In this document: positions 5,789 through 57,195 of the stretch, piece after piece
Position numbering within the stretch: the first letter of the stretch is position 1
How the letters are laid out: every line of letters begins with the position of its first letter
Assembly (NCBI GenBank): GCA_903855995.1
Contig: CAIOAN010000007.1
Span: 124,001 to 188,000, forward strand
Reading direction: 5' to 3'
DNA: 64,000 bases
Origin: an uncultured Opitutia bacterium
GTDB taxonomy: Bacteria; Verrucomicrobiota; Verrucomicrobiia; Opitutales; UBA953
Position numbers and translations under genes: made by a program
Notes under the pieces: model-generated
Told to the model about the DNA's origin: nothing
What the model saw: the letters and a program-made list of their open reading frames with translations, nothing else
The model's database searches: none

Positions 5789-6520
5789 TCAGCGACCGCG
5801 GGTGACGGCCAGCAGACCCTGCACATCGCAACGGCCTTCGTAGAGGGCCTTGCCGACGATTGCACCGACGAGATTCGGGTAGGCCTTTGACATCTGGGCG
5901 AGGCGGGCGACATCTTCAGTGCCGGCGACGCCGCCGGAAGCGATGACGCCGCAGGGACAGACCTTGAGGACTTCCTCGAGTGACTTCCAGTTCGGGCCCG
6001 TGAGCATGCCGTCGGTCGCGATGTCGGTGTAGATCACCGTCGACACGCCGAGATCGCCAGCGGCCTTGGCGAATTCCGTGGCCTTGAGCGCGGTGACTGC
6101 GGTCCAGCCCTTGACGGCGACGAGGCCGTCCTTGGCGTCGATGCCGACGGCGAGGCGTGGGCCGTGGGCCTTCGCCATCTCGTTAAGAAAGGCCGGATCC
6201 GTCGCGGCGCGCGTGCCGATCACGATGCGGCTGGCGCCGGCGGCGTAGGCCGCTTCGGCAATGGCGCGATCGCGCATGCCGCCGCCGAACTGAATTTTCG
6301 GACCCAGCGCGGCGATGCGCTGGAGCGTGGGGAGATTGAGCGGGGCGCCGCCGAAGGCGCCATCGAGGTCGACGACGTGAATCCATTCCGCTCCGGCTCC
6401 GGCGAACTGGATGGCCGGCTCGACCGGGTCCTTATAATAATCGGTGCGCGCGTCGTCGCGACCTTGGCTGAGGCGGACGCAAGTGCCGCCGCGGATATCG
6501 ATGGCCGGATAGACGATCAT
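5789..6520 (-). CDS. hisA: phosphoribosylformimino-5-aminoimidazole carboxamide ribotide isomerase
   Basis: A 243-residue (beta/alpha)8 barrel enzyme of normal HisA size, catalysing the Amadori-type isomerisation of ProFAR to PRFAR in histidine synthesis. It begins MIVYPAIDIRGGTCVRLSQG with the catalytic Asp8, has the phosphate-binding GGGMRD after strand 3 and the second catalytic Asp in YTDIATDGMLTGPN. The C-terminal IASGGV and GAIVGKALYEG motifs close the barrel. It starts 6 bases after clpX ends, so the two are co-transcribed. No HisF or HisH gene is present in the window. Confidence 0.95.
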   Translation of the reverse strand: MIVYPAIDIRGGTCVRLSQGRDDARTDYYKDPVEPAIQFAGAGAEWIHVVDLDGAFGGAPLNLPTLQRIAALGPKIQFGGGMRDRAIAEAAYAAGASRIVIGTRAATDPAFLNEMAKAHGPRLAVGIDAKDGLVAVKGWTAVTALKATEFAKAAGDLGVSTVIYTDIATDGMLTGPNWKSLEEVLKVCPCGVIASGGVAGTEDVARLAQMSKAYPNLVGAIVGKALYEGRCDVQGLLAVTRGR

Positions 6521-48225: not shown

Positions 48226-49521
48226 TCACTTCCCCCAGTCGGCGGGCAGGTCGGGTAGGGTGGCGGTCAGAATTTCGTGAATGGCCGCGCGCTCGGCTTC
48301 GTCCAGATGCGCAAAGTTCTCGGAGGGCGGAAAAGCGCGCAAGCCTGCGGACAGCTTGCGGAGGATGAGTTCGCGCAAGGGCTTCGGCAGCGTGGCGAAA
48401 CTCTGCGAATAAATCAGCGGGCTGCAGCGGTAGCGGAAAAGGCGGGTGGCTAGCTCCAGGTCGCGCAGGGAGCGATTCTGTGCGTCGGCTTTGCGGGTGC
48501 GGGCGTAGGTCTTTTCAAACACGCCGTCGCCGTGGATTCCTTGCGGGGGGAAGGCGGCCTCGTCTTTACAGAGCAGAGCTTCGATGACCTTATCGGCCTG
48601 GCTGTTGAAGACGACCAGGCACGAGCCGGAGGGAGGGGCGTTAACCGGCAGGCCGAGAATTTCGCGCATCGCCGGCCAGCGGTAGAGCGCGATCCGCGCG
48701 TCCTGACTCGCCGTCGCAAGGACGTTGTGCACGTGCACCTGGTGGTCGTGCATGAGCAGGGCGACGATGTCGCTGGTGTTCAGCGGATAACGGTGGGTGT
48801 CGACGACATCCTTGAGGGACGGGAGGGTTCGCCCGACTTTCGCGGTCGGCCCTTCAAAGTCGGCGATGCTCGCGCCGATGATATTGCCGTGGTGCTGGAG
48901 TTGGCTGCTGGCGCCTGTGACGTACCATCCACCCCAGCGTTCGGAGAGGGGGGTTGACGGTTCAATGTTGGAGCCGCCAGAGCCACTGAGGGGCTCGCCG
49001 TTGGCGTCGGGAAAGACACTGCGTGTCCGGAGTGAGGGGGTGTGCTCGTGGCGCGTGTGGCAGAGCAGGCATTCTCCGCTGCGATTGAACAGCGGCGCCG
49101 ACCCTGTTTCATGTTGATCCAGCAGATAGAAAGTGGTGCCGAGTTCCGGATCGAAGACGGTGATTTCAAAGCCGCCGCCGACGGCCCAGCCGACGTAGGC
49201 TTCGTCGGAGAAGAACAGGGCGCGGGGGGTTTCGGGTGAAATCAGATTCCGTTGCAGGCTGGTTTTGCTGAAGACCAGGAGCTGGGATTCGATGGGAACG
49301 TCGAGTTGCTCGAGCAGCCAGCGCAGCCGCTTCTTGGCGGGCAGGCTCCGGATCTCGTCGGCTTGCTTTTGGAAGGTCGCGCTGAGGCGGGCGATGCGAT
49401 CCCGCGGCTGGGTGGCTGTATAGTTGATGGGCGCATCCTCGAAGGGTTCCCGCTCCTGAGCGAGGGCGCGCACTCCGTCCCAGGAGAGCAGCGCGCAGGT
49501 CAAGAGCAGGCGAGGATTCAC
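48226..49521 (-). CDS. secreted protein with a single CxxCH haem motif
   Basis: A 431-residue protein with a signal peptide (MNPRLLLTCALLSWDGVRALAQ). A single CLLCH motif lies at residues 151-155, which fits covalent c-type haem in the periplasm. The surrounding RSGECLLCHTRHEHTPSLRTRSVFPD layout resembles hypothetical Verrucomicrobial and Planctomycete secreted proteins with a cytochrome-like motif and no assigned role. The rest has no recognised domain. It converges on the SGNH gene and ends 38 bases before the sigma-factor stop. Redox function is likely; partner unknown. Confidence 0.7.
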   Translation of the reverse strand: MNPRLLLTCALLSWDGVRALAQEREPFEDAPINYTATQPRDRIARLSATFQKQADEIRSLPAKKRLRWLLEQLDVPIESQLLVFSKTSLQRNLISPETPRALFFSDEAYVGWAVGGGFEITVFDPELGTTFYLLDQHETGSAPLFNRSGECLLCHTRHEHTPSLRTRSVFPDANGEPLSGSGGSNIEPSTPLSERWGGWYVTGASSQLQHHGNIIGASIADFEGPTAKVGRTLPSLKDVVDTHRYPLNTSDIVALLMHDHQVHVHNVLATASQDARIALYRWPAMREILGLPVNAPPSGSCLVVFNSQADKVIEALLCKDEAAFPPQGIHGDGVFEKTYARTRKADAQNRSLRDLELATRLFRYRCSPLIYSQSFATLPKPLRELILRKLSAGLRAFPPSENFAHLDEAERAAIHEILTATLPDLPADWGK

Positions 49522-49563: not shown

Positions 49564-50544
49564 TCAGCTGCGGGCCGCGACGCGAAGCTTGCGCATGGCC
49601 GATTCCTCAAGCTGGCGGATGCGTTCGCGGGAAACATTCTGGCGCTGGCCGATGGCCTCGAGGGTCTGGGCTTCACAGCCCAGGCCGTTGCGGAGGCGAA
49701 TAATCTCGCTTTCGCGCTCCGTGAGGAAGCCGAACAGCTTGTGCAGGAGTACTAGGTCATCGGACTGGGCCGCGGCTTCCGCGGGCGTCATCGCGCCTTC
49801 ATCCGTCAGAGTGTCGCCAAGCGTCGTTTCACCTTCGTCGGCCAGCGGCGCGTCCAGTGAGCGGCCGCATTGTTGAAGGCTCTGCAGTTCGGTGAGTTTC
49901 TCCGGGGCGCAGCCGACGGCCTCGGCGAGTTCGTTGTCGGCGGGCACGCGGCCGAGCTCCAGTGTGAGCCGGCGGGTCTCTTTCCGAATCTTGGCGAATT
50001 GCTCGTGGATGTTCCGCGGCAGGCGGACCGTGCGGAACTGAAAATTAAGTTCCGACATGATGGCGGCACGAATACCCCAGTAGGCATAGGTGCTGAAGCG
50101 CAGGCCTTTGCTGGCGTCGTAGTTGCGGGCGGACTCAAGCAGAGCGACGTTGCCAGCGCTGAGCAGGGAGAGCACGAGGTCGCGGTGCACGCTGAACTGC
50201 ATGATGGCGTGGTGCACGAGACGCAGGTTGGAGCAGACGAGATGATCCAGGGCCGCCTGTCCGGCACGGTCATAGTTGCCTGCGCTGTCCCGTCCGGACT
50301 GGGCGAGTCGGCCGAGGCGGAGTTCTTCCTCGGCGCTGAGGCGCGTCCAGCGTCCGGCCCGGTCGAGATAACGGGTGAGTTCATCGATCGGCTCACCCGC
50401 CAGCTCCGCGGTACTCGACGGGTCGAGGTCCGCCGTCAGCGTGTCGCCGCGGAGGTGGATTTCTCCCAGGTCGGGCATTCGGGAGCGGAGGAGGGAGGTG
50501 AGTTCGTCGGTTTTGGGGGTGGCGGGGGCGGTGTGGTTGATCAT
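49564..50544 (-). CDS. sigma-70 family alternative sigma factor with altered regions 2.3/2.4
   Basis: A 326-residue group 2/3 sigma factor. Region 1.2 is PIDELTRYLDRAGRWTRLSAEEELRLGRL, region 2 is VCSNLRLVHHAIMQFSVHR...NYDASKGLRFSTYAYWGIRAAI in pieces, and region 4 holds LTERESEIIRLRNGLGCEAQTLEAIGQRQNVSRERIRQLEESAMRKLR. The usual TWWIRQAITR of region 2.4 is YWGIRAAIMS, so the Gln and Thr that read the -12 base are changed, and the DLIQEGN core motif is SLLSAGN. The start at 50544 (MINHTAPATPKTDE) is chosen; the frame is open 15 codons further. It is divergent from the sulfatase gene. Confidence 0.85.
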   Translation of the reverse strand: MINHTAPATPKTDELTSLLRSRMPDLGEIHLRGDTLTADLDPSSTAELAGEPIDELTRYLDRAGRWTRLSAEEELRLGRLAQSGRDSAGNYDRAGQAALDHLVCSNLRLVHHAIMQFSVHRDLVLSLLSAGNVALLESARNYDASKGLRFSTYAYWGIRAAIMSELNFQFRTVRLPRNIHEQFAKIRKETRRLTLELGRVPADNELAEAVGCAPEKLTELQSLQQCGRSLDAPLADEGETTLGDTLTDEGAMTPAEAAAQSDDLVLLHKLFGFLTERESEIIRLRNGLGCEAQTLEAIGQRQNVSRERIRQLEESAMRKLRVAARS

Positions 50545-50798
50545 GAGAAATTGTAAGACCTCTATACTATAGGGGCAAAAAACACCCATTTCGGGGACGT
50601 GTTTTCCTAAGCCGCTGATAGTAAAAGAAATAAATATCGAAGATTTTTGGAGGGTCGGGGGTGCGGGAGCGGGGGACTGTCGTCAGCGGGTGCTCGGGCA
50701 GGGACCATTATGCACGGCCGCTGAGGTTTGTCAAAAGGCCCGCCCGCACTTTCCTTTTATACTTAATAATAAGAAAGAGCGGAACGCCGGGCCGGGCG
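50545..50798. promoter_or_regulatory. divergent regulatory region with two inverted repeats
   Basis: This 254-base gap separates the sigma factor start from the sulfatase start. It holds a near-perfect 17-base inverted repeat CCTCTATACTATAGGGG (50559-50575) and a second repeat AAAACAC...GTGTTTT (50579-50605), both just upstream of the sigma gene, and AT-rich stretches near 50620-50645 and 50750-50775. No open frame or RNA gene was found here. They look like operator-type sites. Confidence 0.4.
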
Positions 50799-52109
50799 AT
50801 GGGTCTACGGGCCATGCCTCGCTGCCTTGGCCTTATTATCCTCCTCGGGCTTTTTGCGCCCGCCGGTTCGGCGGTGGAAACCCGCGCGCCGAACATCCTT
50901 GTGATCATTTCCGATGACCAAGCGTGGACCGACTACAGCTTCCTCGGTTCGACCAACGTGCGGACCCCTCATATCGACCAGCTCGCCGCCGAGAGCCGGG
51001 TCTTCCCGCGAGGCTATGACACCAATTCGCTCTGTTCGCCGAGCCTCGCTTCGATTCTGACCGGCCGGCATGTCCATCGCCATGGCGTCACGGGCAACGA
51101 TCCGCCCATGACGGCGGCCGCCGGTGCCGGGAAACAGAAATCCGCGGCCTTTCTCCAGGGGCGCGAGCAACTCATCAAACTTTACGATCAGTCCCCCCAG
51201 TTGCCGCGTCTGCTCGCCGAGCGAGGTTATGTCAGCCTGCAGACGGGTAAATGGTGGATGGGGGATTACACGCACGGCGGCTTTACCGAGGGTATGACGA
51301 AGGGAGGCCGCCACGGTGACGACGGCCTGACCATCGGACGCCAGACGCTGGCGCCGCTCACGGAGTTCATCTCCCGCGCCAAGAAGGATCAGAAGCCCTT
51401 CTTCGTCTGGTATGCACCGATGATGCCGCACGACCCGCATAATCCGCCGGAGAGGATTCTGGCCAAATACCGCGGGAAGGCGCCGACGCTCTGGGCGGAC
51501 CGTTATTATGCGATGTGTGAATGGTTTGATGAGACGGTGGGGGAAGTCCGCGCCCATCTCGAGAAGGAGGGGCTGACCAACGATACCATCATTGTCTATC
51601 TTTCAGATAACGGATGGATTCCAGATGCCAAGAAGCCCAAGGTCGATTTCGAACGTTCGAAACTTTCGCCGTTTGACGGCGGGGTGCGCTCGCCGCTGCT
51701 GGTTAGCTGGCCGGGCCACATCAAGCCCATCACCCTCGATTATGCGGTCAGCGCCGTCGACATCATGCCGACGCTGTTGAAATTGGCGGGCGCCCGGATC
51801 CCGGCGGATGGCGACGGCATCGACCTTATGGACGAGGAGGCCCTGCGCCGCCGCCCGTTCGTGGCTGGGCAGAACTCGACCCACGATATTATCGAAATCG
51901 GCAAGCCCGCTTCGAGCCTGCGTTACCGCTGGTTGGTGGCCGGAGACCTGAAGCTCATCGTTTCCAGCGGCCTCAACGGCGCCACGGAGCCCCCTCGGCT
52001 TTTTGACCTCCGGGCCGATGCGGCCGAACTGCATGATCTGGCCGGCGCTCGTCCCGCTGAGGTCAAGCGCCTGACGGCCTTATTGGACGGCTGGTGGGAT
52101 GGCCGCTGA
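50799..52109 (+). CDS. secreted sulfatase (CSPSL-type active site)
   Basis: A 436-residue protein with a signal peptide (LGLIILLGLFAPAGSA). Sulfatase blocks: APNILVIISDDQAWTDY with the metal-binding Asp pair, LCSPSLASILTGRHVHRHG, LQTGKWWMGD, WYAPMMPHDPHNPPE and IVYLSDNGWIPD. The residue converted to formylglycine should be Cys79, but the usual CxPxR reads CSPSL, with Leu83 instead of Arg. It would remove sulfate esters, probably from carbohydrates. The ATG at 50799 precedes another at 50814. It begins a plus-strand run with the lactonase and PSD1. Confidence 0.87.
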   Translation: MGLRAMPRCLGLIILLGLFAPAGSAVETRAPNILVIISDDQAWTDYSFLGSTNVRTPHIDQLAAESRVFPRGYDTNSLCSPSLASILTGRHVHRHGVTGNDPPMTAAAGAGKQKSAAFLQGREQLIKLYDQSPQLPRLLAERGYVSLQTGKWWMGDYTHGGFTEGMTKGGRHGDDGLTIGRQTLAPLTEFISRAKKDQKPFFVWYAPMMPHDPHNPPERILAKYRGKAPTLWADRYYAMCEWFDETVGEVRAHLEKEGLTNDTIIVYLSDNGWIPDAKKPKVDFERSKLSPFDGGVRSPLLVSWPGHIKPITLDYAVSAVDIMPTLLKLAGARIPADGDGIDLMDEEALRRRPFVAGQNSTHDIIEIGKPASSLRYRWLVAGDLKLIVSSGLNGATEPPRLFDLRADAAELHDLAGARPAEVKRLTALLDGWWDGR

Positions 52110-52167
52110 TTTTCCTTTTTAAACGCCCCGACACCTTTACCGTCCTATCACCCCGCCAACCCCCATT

Positions 52168-53271
52168 ATGCGTCACGCCCTCCGCCTGCTCTCCCTCATG
52201 TCTGTCATCTCCGCCGCTGGAGCCGCCGAACTCACCTATTACATCGGCACTTCAGGCGCTCAGGCCCAGGGCATTCTACGTGGCACGATCGACTCCGCGA
52301 CGGGTAAGCTCACCGAGCCCACCCTGCTCGCGGCGGCCAAGGGCGCTTCCTATCTGGCGATCAGCAAGGACGGCAAAGTGATCTACTCCACCTCAGAGGT
52401 CGCCGGCGGCGGCGTCGCCGCTTACCGTATTTTGGCAGACGGCAAGGGGCAGCTGATCAATGCAGAGGACACCAAGGGCAAGGGCTGCACCCACCTCTCC
52501 ATTGACCCAGCGGGGCATAATCTGCTGGCGGCCAATTATGGCTCCGGCTCCGTCGCCTGCCTGCCGATCAAGGCGGACGGATCGCTTGCGGCCGTTTCCA
52601 GCTTTGACCAGCATGTCGGCACGGGACCCGACGTGAAGCGCCAGGCCGGACCGCACGCCCACGGCATTTATCCCGATGCGGCCGGAAAATTCGTCTACGT
52701 GCCCGACCTCGGCACCGACGACGTCTTTATCTATCGCCTCAATGCCGGTAAGGGAACGTTGACCCTGAACGCGCCGCAGTCTGGCCGCGTCGCGCCGGGG
52801 AGCGGCCCTCGCCACCTTGCTTTCCATCCGCAGGGAGGTTTCGCCTATGTCTGCAACGAGATGGCGCTGACCGTCAGCACTTTCGCCGTGAATGCGGATA
52901 CGGGCGCGATGAAAGAAATCCAGACCCTGCCGACGCTGCCTTCGGACGCTTACTCCGCCGGTGCCTCGACCGCGGAAATCTTCTGTCTGCCGAACGGCAA
53001 GGCGCTCTACGTCTCCAATCGTGGGAATGATTCGCTGGCAGTTTTTGCGATCGGCGCCGACGGCAAGCTGTCGCTCAGCCAGCATATGATGAACACCCCA
53101 GCGACGCCCCGCGGTTTTGGCCTCAGTAATGACGGCCGCTGGTTGGTCTGCGCCGGACAGAAGTCCGGGACGATCAACGCCTACCGCGTGAACGCTTCGA
53201 CTGGTCGGCTCGACGACACATATCAGTCCGTGAAGGCGGCGGCATCTTGCTGCATCATCTTCGCCCCGTGA
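52168..53271 (+). CDS. secreted beta-propeller lactonase (YbhE-like)
   Basis: A 367-residue protein with a signal peptide (LLSLMSVISAAGAAE). It has seven repeats of the lactonase type, including YLAISKDGKVIYSTSEV, THLSIDPAGHNLLAANYGSGSV, PHAHGIYPDAAGKFVYVPDLG and GPRHLAFHPQGGFAYVCNE. The family includes 6-phosphogluconolactonase, but the export signal suggests a lactone of extracellular origin. It is 58 bases after the sulfatase and 25 before the PSD1 start. Confidence 0.87.
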   Translation: MRHALRLLSLMSVISAAGAAELTYYIGTSGAQAQGILRGTIDSATGKLTEPTLLAAAKGASYLAISKDGKVIYSTSEVAGGGVAAYRILADGKGQLINAEDTKGKGCTHLSIDPAGHNLLAANYGSGSVACLPIKADGSLAAVSSFDQHVGTGPDVKRQAGPHAHGIYPDAAGKFVYVPDLGTDDVFIYRLNAGKGTLTLNAPQSGRVAPGSGPRHLAFHPQGGFAYVCNEMALTVSTFAVNADTGAMKEIQTLPTLPSDAYSAGASTAEIFCLPNGKALYVSNRGNDSLAVFAIGADGKLSLSQHMMNTPATPRGFGLSNDGRWLVCAGQKSGTINAYRVNASTGRLDDTYQSVKAAASCCIIFAP

Positions 53272-53296
53272 TTTGCCCGTGGGTCGCCTGAGCGTC

Positions 53297-55735
53297 ATGC
53301 GGGGTGTTTCGCTGGCCTGGGGCTGCGCGGCCTCGGTCGTCGCCGTGTGCGGCGCTCCGGTCGATTTCTCGCATGAGGTCGTGCCGATCCTGCGCAAGCA
53401 TTGCGTCGAGTGTCACGCCGGGGATAAGAAGAAGGGGGGGCTTTCGATGAACACCCGCGCCTCGCTGCTTGAGGGTAGTGAGAACGGTGCGGTCATCACT
53501 CCCGGCCAGGGCGCGAAAGGTAAACTGGTCGAGGCGATCATCAGCACCGACCCCGATGTGCGCATGCCGCCCAAGGGCGAGCGTCTCCCGCCGGCCGAAG
53601 TCGCGATCTTGCGCGAGTGGGTCGGGCAGGGGGCCGTCTGGGATGAAGGGTTCGCGTTCAAGCGGCCGGCCTACGAGCCTCTGCTGCGTCCTCGCCAGCC
53701 TGTATTACCCGTGGCGCAGCCCGGTCGCGATCATCCCGTCGACCGGGTTCTTGATGCGTCGCTGGTGGCCCATGGTCAGCCGATTCCAGCCCGCGCCACC
53801 GATGCGGCTTTTCTGCGCCGCGTTTATCTGGACCTGATTGGCTTGCTGCCCGCCGAGGCCGAAGCCAAGTCGTTCGCAGCGGATAACCGACCTGATAAGC
53901 GCGCCTTGCTGGTGCGCGCCCTGCTGTCTCGTAATATAGATTACGCTGATCACTGGATGGTTTTCTGGAATGACCTGCTCCGCAATGATTACGCCGGCAC
54001 GGGGTATATCGACGGCGGTCGCAAGCAGATCACCAGTTGGCTCTACGTCTCCCTGCTCGCCAACAAGCCATACGACCAGTTCGCACGGGAACTGATCGCT
54101 CCTTCGCCTGATAGCGAGGGTTTCGCCAAGGGCATCATCTGGCGCGGCGCCGTGAGCGCGGCGCAGGTCCCGGAGCTTCAGTTCTCCCAGAGCGTCTCGC
54201 AGACCTTCCTTGGGATTAATATGAAGTGCGCCTCGTGCCATGATAGTTTCGTCGATCGATGGAAGCTGAAGGATGCCTATGGTCTGGCCGCGATTTACTC
54301 GGATCACCCGATGGAACTCGTGCGCTGCGACATTCCGACGGGCAAGCCCGCCGCCGCCGCGTGGCCTTTCCCGGAACTCGGTCAGATTGACGCCGCGAAG
54401 CCGCGCGGTGACCGGCTGACCCAGCTGGCCGGATTGATCACGCATCCGGAGAACGGTCGATTCCAACGCACCATCGTGAACCGGCTCTGGCATCGGCTCA
54501 TGGGCCGAGGGGTCGTGCACCCCGTCGATGCGATGCAGACGGAGCCCTGGAACCAGGATCTGCTCGACGTGCTCGCAAACCAACTCGTGGCTTCCAAGTA
54601 TGACCTCAAGGCGGTCTTGGAATTCATCGCCACCTCCCAGGCCTACCAGTCGCAGGCCGAAGTGCTCGGCCAGGATGCCGATGCCAAGGGGTATGTTTAC
54701 CGCGGCCCGCGCGGCAAGCGCCTGACCGCCGAGCAATTCGTCGACGCCCTCTGGCGCCTGACCCAGACCACGCCGGCGAAAATGGAATTACGGGTGCCGC
54801 GCATCTTGCCTTCGGCCGAGGGCAAGAAAGCCCCGGTCGTGGAGATGCTCGCAGCGCAACCCATCTGGTCGAACGATATTGCGGGCCGTTTGCCGGCGGT
54901 CGGCGAGACGCGTTCATTCCGCAAAGTGTTCAACCTCGAAGCCACGGTGGAGACGGCACTATGCGTGGCCACCTGCGACAACAGCTTTGATCTCTGGGTG
55001 AACGGCCGTAAGGTTGGCTCCGGTGATAATTGGGCCGTGCCGCAGAGTTTTGATATCGGCGATTTGCTCAACAAGGGCAGCAACCAGTTCGTCCTCGTGG
55101 GGCGCAATGGGGGAACGGTCCCGAATCTCGCGGCTGCGTGGCTCCAGGCGAGCATCGAGCTCAAGGGAGGCGTCCGCGTGAAGGTCGCCACGGATCTTTC
55201 CTGGGAATGGTCAGAAGCCCAGCCGAATGCGCGCGGGGTCATTCCGGAGCCCAAGGGAGCCAAGGCCGCCAAGACGCTCTGGAAGCCGGTGGCGCTCGTG
55301 AAGGCTGAGGTTTGGGGCAAGGCCGAGACGCGCATGTCGCAGATGCTGGCCGGAGTCAGCGGCGGCACCTCTGTTCTCGCGCGGGCCAGTTTGATGAAGT
55401 CAGATTTACTGCAGCGCTCGCTGGGGCGCCCCAACCGCGAGCAGATCGTTTCCATGCGACCGAACGAACTGAGCACGCTCGAGGCCATCGATCTCTCGAA
55501 CGGCCAGGCGCTCACTAATCTGCTGGGAGCTGGTGCGACGAACCTCGCGAAACGCAAGTGGGCCTCGGCGGATCAATTCATTCAGTGGCTTTACTTGTCC
55601 GCCTTGTGTCGCGAGCCCTCCGCAGACGAGCTCAAGGTGTCGCGGGGGATCCTCGGACCCGAGTTTTCCCAGCAAGGCATCGCCGATCTTCTCTGGTCGG
55701 TGTGCATGCTCCCTGAGTTTCAGACCATCCGCTAA
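53297..55735 (+). CDS. PSCyt1/DUF1549/DUF1553 (PSD1) protein with inserted jelly-roll domain
   Basis: An 812-residue secreted protein with signal MRGVSLAWGCAASVVAVCGA. PSCyt1 carries haem motif CVECH at residues 36-40, and DUF1549 holds FLRRVYLDLIGLLP plus a second CxxCH (KCASCHDSF). DUF1553 (HRLMGRGVVHPVDAMQTEPWNQDLLDVLA) follows. Residues about 520-640 are a beta sandwich (ATCDNSFDLWVNGRKVGSG, DIGDLLNKGSNQFVLVGRN) like the sugar-binding module of glycosidases; it interrupts DUF1553. The start at 53297 is preferred over TTG at 53273. It forms a pair with the DUF1501 gene (5-base gap). Confidence 0.88.
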   Translation: MRGVSLAWGCAASVVAVCGAPVDFSHEVVPILRKHCVECHAGDKKKGGLSMNTRASLLEGSENGAVITPGQGAKGKLVEAIISTDPDVRMPPKGERLPPAEVAILREWVGQGAVWDEGFAFKRPAYEPLLRPRQPVLPVAQPGRDHPVDRVLDASLVAHGQPIPARATDAAFLRRVYLDLIGLLPAEAEAKSFAADNRPDKRALLVRALLSRNIDYADHWMVFWNDLLRNDYAGTGYIDGGRKQITSWLYVSLLANKPYDQFARELIAPSPDSEGFAKGIIWRGAVSAAQVPELQFSQSVSQTFLGINMKCASCHDSFVDRWKLKDAYGLAAIYSDHPMELVRCDIPTGKPAAAAWPFPELGQIDAAKPRGDRLTQLAGLITHPENGRFQRTIVNRLWHRLMGRGVVHPVDAMQTEPWNQDLLDVLANQLVASKYDLKAVLEFIATSQAYQSQAEVLGQDADAKGYVYRGPRGKRLTAEQFVDALWRLTQTTPAKMELRVPRILPSAEGKKAPVVEMLAAQPIWSNDIAGRLPAVGETRSFRKVFNLEATVETALCVATCDNSFDLWVNGRKVGSGDNWAVPQSFDIGDLLNKGSNQFVLVGRNGGTVPNLAAAWLQASIELKGGVRVKVATDLSWEWSEAQPNARGVIPEPKGAKAAKTLWKPVALVKAEVWGKAETRMSQMLAGVSGGTSVLARASLMKSDLLQRSLGRPNREQIVSMRPNELSTLEAIDLSNGQALTNLLGAGATNLAKRKWASADQFIQWLYLSALCREPSADELKVSRGILGPEFSQQGIADLLWSVCMLPEFQTIR

Positions 55736-55740
55736 CCCTC

Positions 55741-57195
55741 ATGAATAACCCGTTGTCGCTTGACCCTTCGCTGCCCGAGCCGCTGGCCCGCCGTGAATTC
55801 CTGCGTATGCTCGCCGGCGCCAGCGCCGCCACCTTATCCATGGGTGCCCCGCGTCTGCTCGGCGCGGAAACCAAGTTCATCCAACCTAAGGCCAAGGCCG
55901 ATGCTTGCATCCTAATCTGGCTCGCTGGCGGGATGGCCGCGCCGGAGACTTTCGACCCGAAGCGTTATGCGCCCTATGAGAAGGGCCTTTCTTATGAGCA
56001 CGTGCTGAGCACGTTCCCTTCGATTCCCACCGCCGTCGACGGCATGCGCATCTGTCAGGGGATGGAGAATATCGCGACGGTGATGGATCGCGCGACGCTG
56101 ATCCGTTCGGCGGTGCAGCCCGACCTCGGCAGCATCCTGCATTCGCGCCACCAGTTCCACTGGCATACCGGGTACGTGCCGCCTCAGACCGTCGCCTGCC
56201 CGCACATCGGCGCCTGGATGGCCCGCGTGCTCGGTCCGCGCAATCCAGTGATGCCCGCTTTTATTAATATTGGCCAGCGGCTCGAAGGGGTGGGGGAGAG
56301 CGAGGAGCTTAAGGCCTTCACGACCGGCGGTTTCTTCGGCGGCGAGTTCGGGCCCATGAATCTACCTTTCCCGGAAGATGCCGCCGCCGCGGTTCGCCCG
56401 CCGAAGGGGATGGACCCCGCGCGCTTCGTGAATCGCGACCGCGAATTCCGCCGCCTGGTGGACGCCAATCCGAACCGCGCCGTACTCAGTGATTATCAGC
56501 AGGAGTCGATGCTGCGCGCGATGGACAACGCCTACCGCCTGCTCAGCGCCAAGGAACGCGCCGCCTTCGATATCTCCCTTGAAGCCAAGGAAGTGCAGCA
56601 GGATTACGACACAGGCCGATTCGGACGCGGCTGTCTGCTTGCGCGGCGGCTCGTCGAGAACGGCGCCCGTTTCGTCGAAGTCACGACGGAGTACGTGCCC
56701 TTCTTTCAGTGGGATACGCACGGCAAGGGTCACGAGACGGTGGCCAAGATGCACGCCGAGATTGACCGGCCGATCGCCCGCCTGATCCGCGATCTCGAAC
56801 AGCGCGGCCTCCTGGATCGCACGCTCGTCGTGATCGCGAGCGAGTTCAGCCGCGACGCGATGATCGAGGGTCGTCCGGGATCGAAGGCCGGAGACCAGGC
56901 CTTCAATAAGGGCAAGACCATGGAAAGCCCCGACCATTACGGGCTCCACCGCCACTTCACCGGCGGCACGAGCGTCGTGATGTTCGGTGGAGGTGTGAAG
57001 CGCGGCAATATTTACGGGGCGACCGCGGATGAGCGGCCGCTGGTCGCGATCAAGGATCCGGTCTCGATCTCGGACATGCACGCCACAATCTTCCACGCGA
57101 TGGGCATCAGTCCCAAGACTGCTTATGATATCGAGGGCCGTCCGTTCTACGCGACGGTGGACGGAAAGGGCGTGCCCGCGCCGATCTTCAGCTAA
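55741..57195 (+). CDS. DUF1501 secreted protein (Tat signal)
   Basis: A 484-residue protein with a twin-arginine signal: RREFLRMLAGASAATL at residues 17-32. The DUF1501 pattern is clear: DACILIWLAGGMAAPETFDPK, SILHSRHQFHWHTGY, GRGCLLARRLVENGARFVEV and VVIASEFSRDAMIEG. The fold is related to sulfatases/alkaline phosphatases, but the nucleophile is not conserved. PSD1 and DUF1501 genes regularly occur as neighbours in Planctomycetota and Verrucomicrobiota; function is unknown. It overlaps the glycerate kinase stop by 8 bases at the 3' end. Confidence 0.9.
   Translation: MNNPLSLDPSLPEPLARREFLRMLAGASAATLSMGAPRLLGAETKFIQPKAKADACILIWLAGGMAAPETFDPKRYAPYEKGLSYEHVLSTFPSIPTAVDGMRICQGMENIATVMDRATLIRSAVQPDLGSILHSRHQFHWHTGYVPPQTVACPHIGAWMARVLGPRNPVMPAFINIGQRLEGVGESEELKAFTTGGFFGGEFGPMNLPFPEDAAAAVRPPKGMDPARFVNRDREFRRLVDANPNRAVLSDYQQESMLRAMDNAYRLLSAKERAAFDISLEAKEVQQDYDTGRFGRGCLLARRLVENGARFVEVTTEYVPFFQWDTHGKGHETVAKMHAEIDRPIARLIRDLEQRGLLDRTLVVIASEFSRDAMIEGRPGSKAGDQAFNKGKTMESPDHYGLHRHFTGGTSVVMFGGGVKRGNIYGATADERPLVAIKDPVSISDMHATIFHAMGISPKTAYDIEGRPFYATVDGKGVPAPIFS

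Follow-up and report, generated by a model that had tools for sequence, protein, structure and literature searches.

A genus-restricted alternative sigma factor of an Opitutales bacterium with conserved −35-reading residues and clade-wide changes at the −12 and −14 readers

Does the sigma factor gene in this stretch of DNA encode a protein that combines ordinary −35 recognition with altered reading of the −10 element, as had been proposed from its letters alone, and is this a property of a single sequence or of a lineage? The gene, hereafter called sigma3, lies in a 64,000-nucleotide stretch from an uncultured Opitutia bacterium (the window, to which all coordinates refer), and the sequence-only reading had placed it correctly at 49564..50544, on what proved to be the minus strand (326 aa, stop codon included in the coordinates); the ATG at 50544 is backed by a start context kept in six aligned species. 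The product, P0001, contains sigma-70 regions 1.2 (residues 56–86), 2, 3 and 4, each above the Pfam cut-off (lowest for region 2 at 30.5 bits and region 1.2 at 22.8 bits) and with regions 2, 3 and 4 in the expected order, which upholds its assignment as an alternative sigma factor, while a Pfam search gave no match to region 1.1. The best PDB sequence matches are primary or group 2 sigma-70 factors. The AlphaFold2 model (55 sequences; mean pLDDT 77.4, pTM 0.46) has block pLDDT values of 90–97 over residues 61–160 and predicts the first 49 residues to be disordered (pLDDT <50). A Foldseek search with this model retrieved sigma in initiation complexes (E 2.8e-14, probability 1.00), with low global TM-scores (about 0.3–0.35 by query) as would be expected if the domain arrangement in the free model differs from that bound to polymerase. 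The host genome (2.7 Mb) has seven region-2 matches, and a search of it with P0001 returned three factors, namely P0001 itself and intact RpoS-like (36% identity) and RpoD (34%) factors. The organism belongs to the Verrucomicrobiota, the nearest named record (86% identity) being a metagenome genome of an uncultured member of the Opitutae.

We compared P0001 with E. coli RpoD (NC_000913, the numbering of which is used throughout). The region 2.3–2.4 segment (50053..50082, minus strand, calculated from the gene start; residues 155–164) reads YWGIRAAIMS, with T432 replaced by Tyr, W433 retained, and the substitutions W434G, Q437A, T440M and R441S. The region 2.2 segment (50149..50169, minus strand, residues 126–132) reads SLLSAGN in place of DLIQEGN (D403S, Q406S, E407A), and the region 3.0 segment (50002..50022, minus strand, residues 175–181) reads LPRNIHE (V454R, H455N, E458 kept), while the DNA-opening residues F427, Y430 and W433 are all present. 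Both of the motifs singled out earlier are thus in the protein, as is the replacement of the −12-reading Gln and Thr and of one of the two neighbouring aromatic residues. According to PMC2613000, position −12 is read by Q437 and T440 and position −14 by H455 and E458, with W434, R436, R441 and R451 affecting duplex binding, and according to PMC4496690 W433 acts as the wedge and Y430 stacks on −11A; these roles are carried over here from E. coli to sigma3. The change in region 2.2 need not stop binding to the core enzyme, since mutations at these positions do no more than weaken coiled-coil binding and E407A is present in natural sigma factors (PMC8321222).

We extended the comparison to 45 orthologues, taken from 44 genomes plus the locus of the closest relative (L038; L104 of G076 was dropped as apparently the same assembly). 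The −35-reading residues of region 4.2 (R584, E585, R586, R588 and Q589) are present in all 45, as are F427, T429, N383 and E458, with V450 and R448 likewise constant, W433 found in 42/45 and Y430 in 40/45. W434 and Q437 are found in none of the orthologues: position 434 has Gly, Ala or His among its replacements, and position 437 has Ser in 43 and Ala in two (P0001 and the closest relative, CAIRLQ). T440 is kept in 2/45 and R441 in 23/45, H455 survives once and is Asn in the other 44, and V454 is always Arg or Lys. The genus's own RpoD and RpoS-like factors keep Q437 and both tryptophans. As the loss of W434 and Q437 is common to all orthologues, chance can be excluded, and across the clade the −12 readers (Q437, T440), W434 and the extended −10 reader H455 are replaced while the base-flipping residues are largely kept, a pattern that is invisible from a single sequence. 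The earlier view that regions 1.2, 3 and 4 are normal goes too far, as region 3.0 has changes at 454 and 455. Similarly, SLLSAGN is a real feature of P0001, but in exactly this form it is found only here and in CAIRLQ/G076, the nearest relative; the majority of orthologues have (D/E)L(I/V/M)(S/A)AGN or similar, position 403 being Glu in 33, Asp in 10 and Ser in two, and the constant change is E407A (45/45).

To delimit the clade, orthologues were surveyed in 79 genomes of the family, with calls based on match strength and on the motifs read. Sigma3 was found in 45/55 genomes of the genus, and the inspected matches from the rest of the family and order proved to be RpoD, RpoS-like factors or factors that differ in other ways. 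Among 286 genomes spread over the class, clear matches came from genus members only; outside the genus the match in G037 (8.4e-47) is a standard WWIKQ factor, and there was a further match in G312 (5.9e-47). The ten genus genomes without sigma3 are 66–96% complete, and single absences among them may be gaps. Two other sigma factors seen in this survey deserve mention: another genus of the family has an odd factor in which both Trp are kept, the Q437 position is Arg and the 3.0 segment is unusual (L133, G047:C2), and one species of the genus has a second, diverged RpoD-like factor besides its normal RpoD (L056, G004:C122). We found no paper on sigma3 among open-licence publications.

The gene neighbourhood is the same in all 21 loci with wide flanks, in the order H+-pyrophosphatase, S9 peptidase, 3-keto-disaccharide hydrolase, cupin, GDSL lipase, a 431-aa CXXCH protein and sigma3, followed on the other side by divergent genes for a sulfatase, a lactonase, a PSCyt/PSD1 protein, a DUF1501 protein and glycerate kinase, with some loci incomplete or only partly covered and the sulfatase not detected in CAIRLQ or G002. 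The 431-aa gene (48226..49521, minus strand, downstream of sigma3) has a signal-like N-terminal stretch and one CXXCH motif by eye and no Pfam match. It adjoins sigma3 on the same strand in 21/21 loci, so that sigma3 versions of 38–44% identity are orthologues by position too. The divergent sulfatase, lactonase, PSCyt1/PSCyt2/PSD1 and DUF1501 genes (50814..57195, plus strand, starts approximate) are probably what had previously been called a secreted locus beside the sigma factor gene.

The best conserved promoter near sigma3 is its own, TTGAC(A/G)-N16-(C/T)ATAAT, which in this genome reads TTGACA-N16-CATAATG (50706..50734, minus strand) and in most orthologues with the site has 188–191 nt from TTGAC to the ATG. 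The tmRNA genes of the genus (L245, L248) have a conserved promoter of similar design, TTGAC(A/T)-N16-GATAAT, with spacer 16 and G at −12. A search for TTGAC-N15-17-G(C/G/T)ATAAT(A/G) in the 55 genus genomes gave 33 matches, of which 17 are by position the promoter of sigma3 itself, 12 share the tmRNA-type layout (two are tmRNA according to Rfam and ARAGORN, and two others are identified by sharing their downstream sequence) and four lie elsewhere. Because of its resemblance to the tmRNA promoter, we read the sigma3 promoter not as the sign of a new −10 element but as being of the primary-sigma type, from which the gene looks to be transcribed; the G at −12 of the tmRNA promoter makes a base other than T at this position look normal for the primary sigma. 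Autoregulation through the CATAAT box was considered and rejected as unproven, since the tmRNA promoter has the same layout.

Cross-species comparison of the leaders also revealed a conserved near-palindromic element just upstream of the start codon, CCTATAGTATAGAGG (50559..50573, minus strand). Its general form, CCTATA(N)TATASAGG, is present as a single copy in 28/55 genomes, directly upstream of sigma3 in 27 and elsewhere in one (G089), and there is no exact match in 18/45 sigma3-bearing genomes; this genome and CAIRLQ/G076 have an extra G. A structured RNA element in the 5′ leader was considered and rejected, as RNAalifold found essentially no structure in 25 leaders (−0.66 kcal/mol). At 50627–50647 (minus strand), where the leader of most species has a conserved AT-rich block, AATATWATACGTTTTTAT, this genome and the closest relative have another AT-rich sequence instead. 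In that relative (L038) there is an in-frame stop near 6001–6085, in the variable N-terminal part of sigma3; the conserved regions are intact, and the true start may be downstream of this stop.

Sigma3 probably switches on its own set of genes, and we searched for shared promoter motifs in the host genome. The cytochrome and sulfatase gene family is one candidate target set. Copies of PSCyt2 number 3–26 in the 45 genomes with sigma3 and 0–3 in the ten without it. The presence of sigma3 thus coincides with an expanded cytochrome gene family; seven of the ten genomes lacking the gene could be placed, and on the RpoS-like tree these fall into a single group (support 89, by a quick method), which makes the coincidence one evolutionary transition and weak evidence of a functional link. 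The host genome itself has about 22–23 PSCyt2 genes and about 30 sulfatases. A comparison of the regions upstream of 22 PSCyt2 and 30 sulfatase genes with 173 background regions gave no shared regulon motif, the best word p values of the 52 candidate regions falling within the range of 20 random splits; operon-internal genes had not been filtered out of this set, and it excluded L163, a PSCyt2 match with a low score, as well as two partial matches to sulfatases that have no locus (both in G000:C12). TTGAC occurred in 3/52 candidate vs 31/173 background regions, from which, with the candidates unfiltered for operons, nothing is drawn. A search for a general −10 consensus of the genome in 192 upstream regions gave three near-canonical pairs vs four in the control, and −35-like words were enriched upstream while no clear −10 appeared. 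The proposal of a −35-like box combined with an altered −10 is backed by the intact −35 readers and the changed region 2.4, but these searches turned up no promoter whose −10 is distinct. Other upstream features were noted in passing: three regions (L200, L211 and L213) contain repeated TTGACC/GGTTGACC units followed by TTG(A/G)CAAGGGAG, and the word TGTCCCTA/TCCCTACC is over-represented in upstream regions of this genome.

Taken together, we consider it reasonably probable that sigma3 is a functional, genus-restricted alternative sigma factor which retains the −35 and melting functions and in which reading of −12/−14 has changed; the residues themselves support this division well. Sigma3 would associate with core RNA polymerase in the manner of other sigma-70 factors, dock its region 4 on a TTGACA-like −35 box and open the DNA with W433, Y430 and F427, while the −14 to −12 stretch would be read by different contacts. 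As region 2.4 is altered and the −35 readers are intact, the natural expectation is that the promoters served have a −35-like box and a −10 element altered at its upstream edge. That the −12 readers are lost does not reveal which sequence is recognized in place of the usual one, and FliA and RpoH also differ at these positions. A rather unlikely alternative is that sigma3 is an ordinary group 2 (RpoS-like) stress factor serving standard promoters, in which the changes in region 2.4 are without consequence and tolerated because recognition of the −10 element depends in large part on −11A and −7T. The largely kept −11A-flipping residues and the invariant −35 reader would suit such a factor, as would the tmRNA and sigma3 promoters, which mostly have G or C rather than T at −12, so that reading of this position may matter little even for RpoD. 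Group 2 sigma factors closely match the primary sigma in regions 2.4 and 4.2, lack region 1.1 and have region 1.2. P0001 agrees in its lack of region 1.1, its region 1.2 and its region 4.2, but not in region 2.4, where alignment with RpoD, RpoH, RpoS and relatives confirmed the changes and where E. coli RpoS and the RpoS-like and RpoD factors of the genus all differ from it. The tryptophan and glutamine that those factors of the genus keep are lost from every sigma3, along with the replacement of H455, and this argues against the group 2 view.

Descent from group 3 (FliA/SigB-type) factors, rather than change of an RpoD/RpoS-type factor, is improbable. E. coli FliA has Ala at 407, a residue other than Trp at 434, Gly at 437 and Arg at 454, and a phylogenetic tree placed the FliA row among the sigma3 rows, but on a very long branch and with weak support (88/24), in a tree where every sigma3 row lies on one side of a 100/98 branch, apart from RpoD and RpoS-like factors. 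The top-scoring NCBIfam models for P0001, all far under their own cut-offs, are those for RpoD/SigA and RpoS (RpoD_Cterm 176 bits, rpoS_proteo 154 bits), as against 86 bits each for FliA_WhiG and SigBFG (cut-offs 189.6 and 234.35, so that the group 3 models are not reached), and P0001 keeps region 1.2 and an RpoD-type region 4.2. The RpoH models gave 102 bits (cut-offs 323 and 241).

Sigma factors are usually conserved within a genus. Sigma3 is 38–55% identical to the version in this genome and the lowest of the syntenic genes in 19/20 species, the exception being G016, whose glycerate kinase is broken up into several frames and has 52% vs 53% for sigma3; in CAIRLQ, the closest relative, it is 88% identical and not the lowest. 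The RpoS-like paralogues are 72–91% identical over 20 genomes. Over the genus as a whole, sigma3 diverges more rapidly than almost every gene around it and than this paralogue. The dN/dS ratio of sigma3 is 0.059–0.190 in 13 close pairs, and in two distant pairs it is 0.39 and 0.41 at a dS near 0.9, which may be saturated; from these longer comparisons, relaxed constraint may account for part of the fast divergence. That sigma3 is a factor on its way to loss, with relaxed selection eroding region 2 as in endosymbionts with tiny genomes, is very improbable, as its fast divergence, the ten genomes without the gene and the E407A and 437/440 changes in the sigma factors of Hodgkinia and Carsonella (PMC8321222) would fit such decay, whereas the low dN/dS in close pairs, the invariant residues of region 4.2, the constancy of E407A, V450, R448 and N383 and the single group of gene-lacking genomes, with no sign of repeated loss, speak against it.

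The genus-restricted factor with its probably changed −12/−14 reading sits in the same locus wherever the flanks were compared and is under purifying selection, yet its −10-reading half changes greatly while its −35-reading residues do not. One speculative idea, to which we attach little probability, is that this is a promoter reader re-tuned from species to species, in which the −12/−14 surface and its target sites would co-evolve fast against a frozen −35 reader, so that every lineage would have a −10 code of its own for a regulon, for instance the PSCyt/sulfatase genes, with the near-palindromic element as an autoregulatory site. The genomes with the extra G in this element, this one and the nearest relative, are precisely those with Ala rather than Ser at 437. 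Some 45 natural variants provide a ready series on how residues of regions 2.4 and 3.0 set −12/−14 preferences, and the same series could show whether promoters follow the residue changes.

Compared with known systems, sigma3 shares with primary and group 2 factors (RpoD/SigA, RpoS) the order 1.2-2-3-4, the sigma-finger region, the RERIRQ motif of region 4.2 and the melting residues, and differs from them in giving no Pfam match to region 1.1 and in the replacement of W434, Q437 and E407 (45/45), T440 (43/45) and H455 (44/45). With FliA (sigma-28) it has in common Ala at 407, the loss of W434 and Q437 and Arg at 454, but it has region 1.2 and an RpoD-type region 4.2, and the FliA models reach half the bit score. 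E. coli RpoH (sigma-32) has Ala at the Q437 position, as P0001 does, but keeps Trp at 434, unlike sigma3. Finally, the Hodgkinia sigma has E407A as in sigma3, and position 437 or 440 is changed in the Hodgkinia and Carsonella sigma factors (PMC8321222), but these serve extremely reduced genomes, whereas sigma3 is additional to the intact RpoD and RpoS-like factors of a 2.7 Mb genome.
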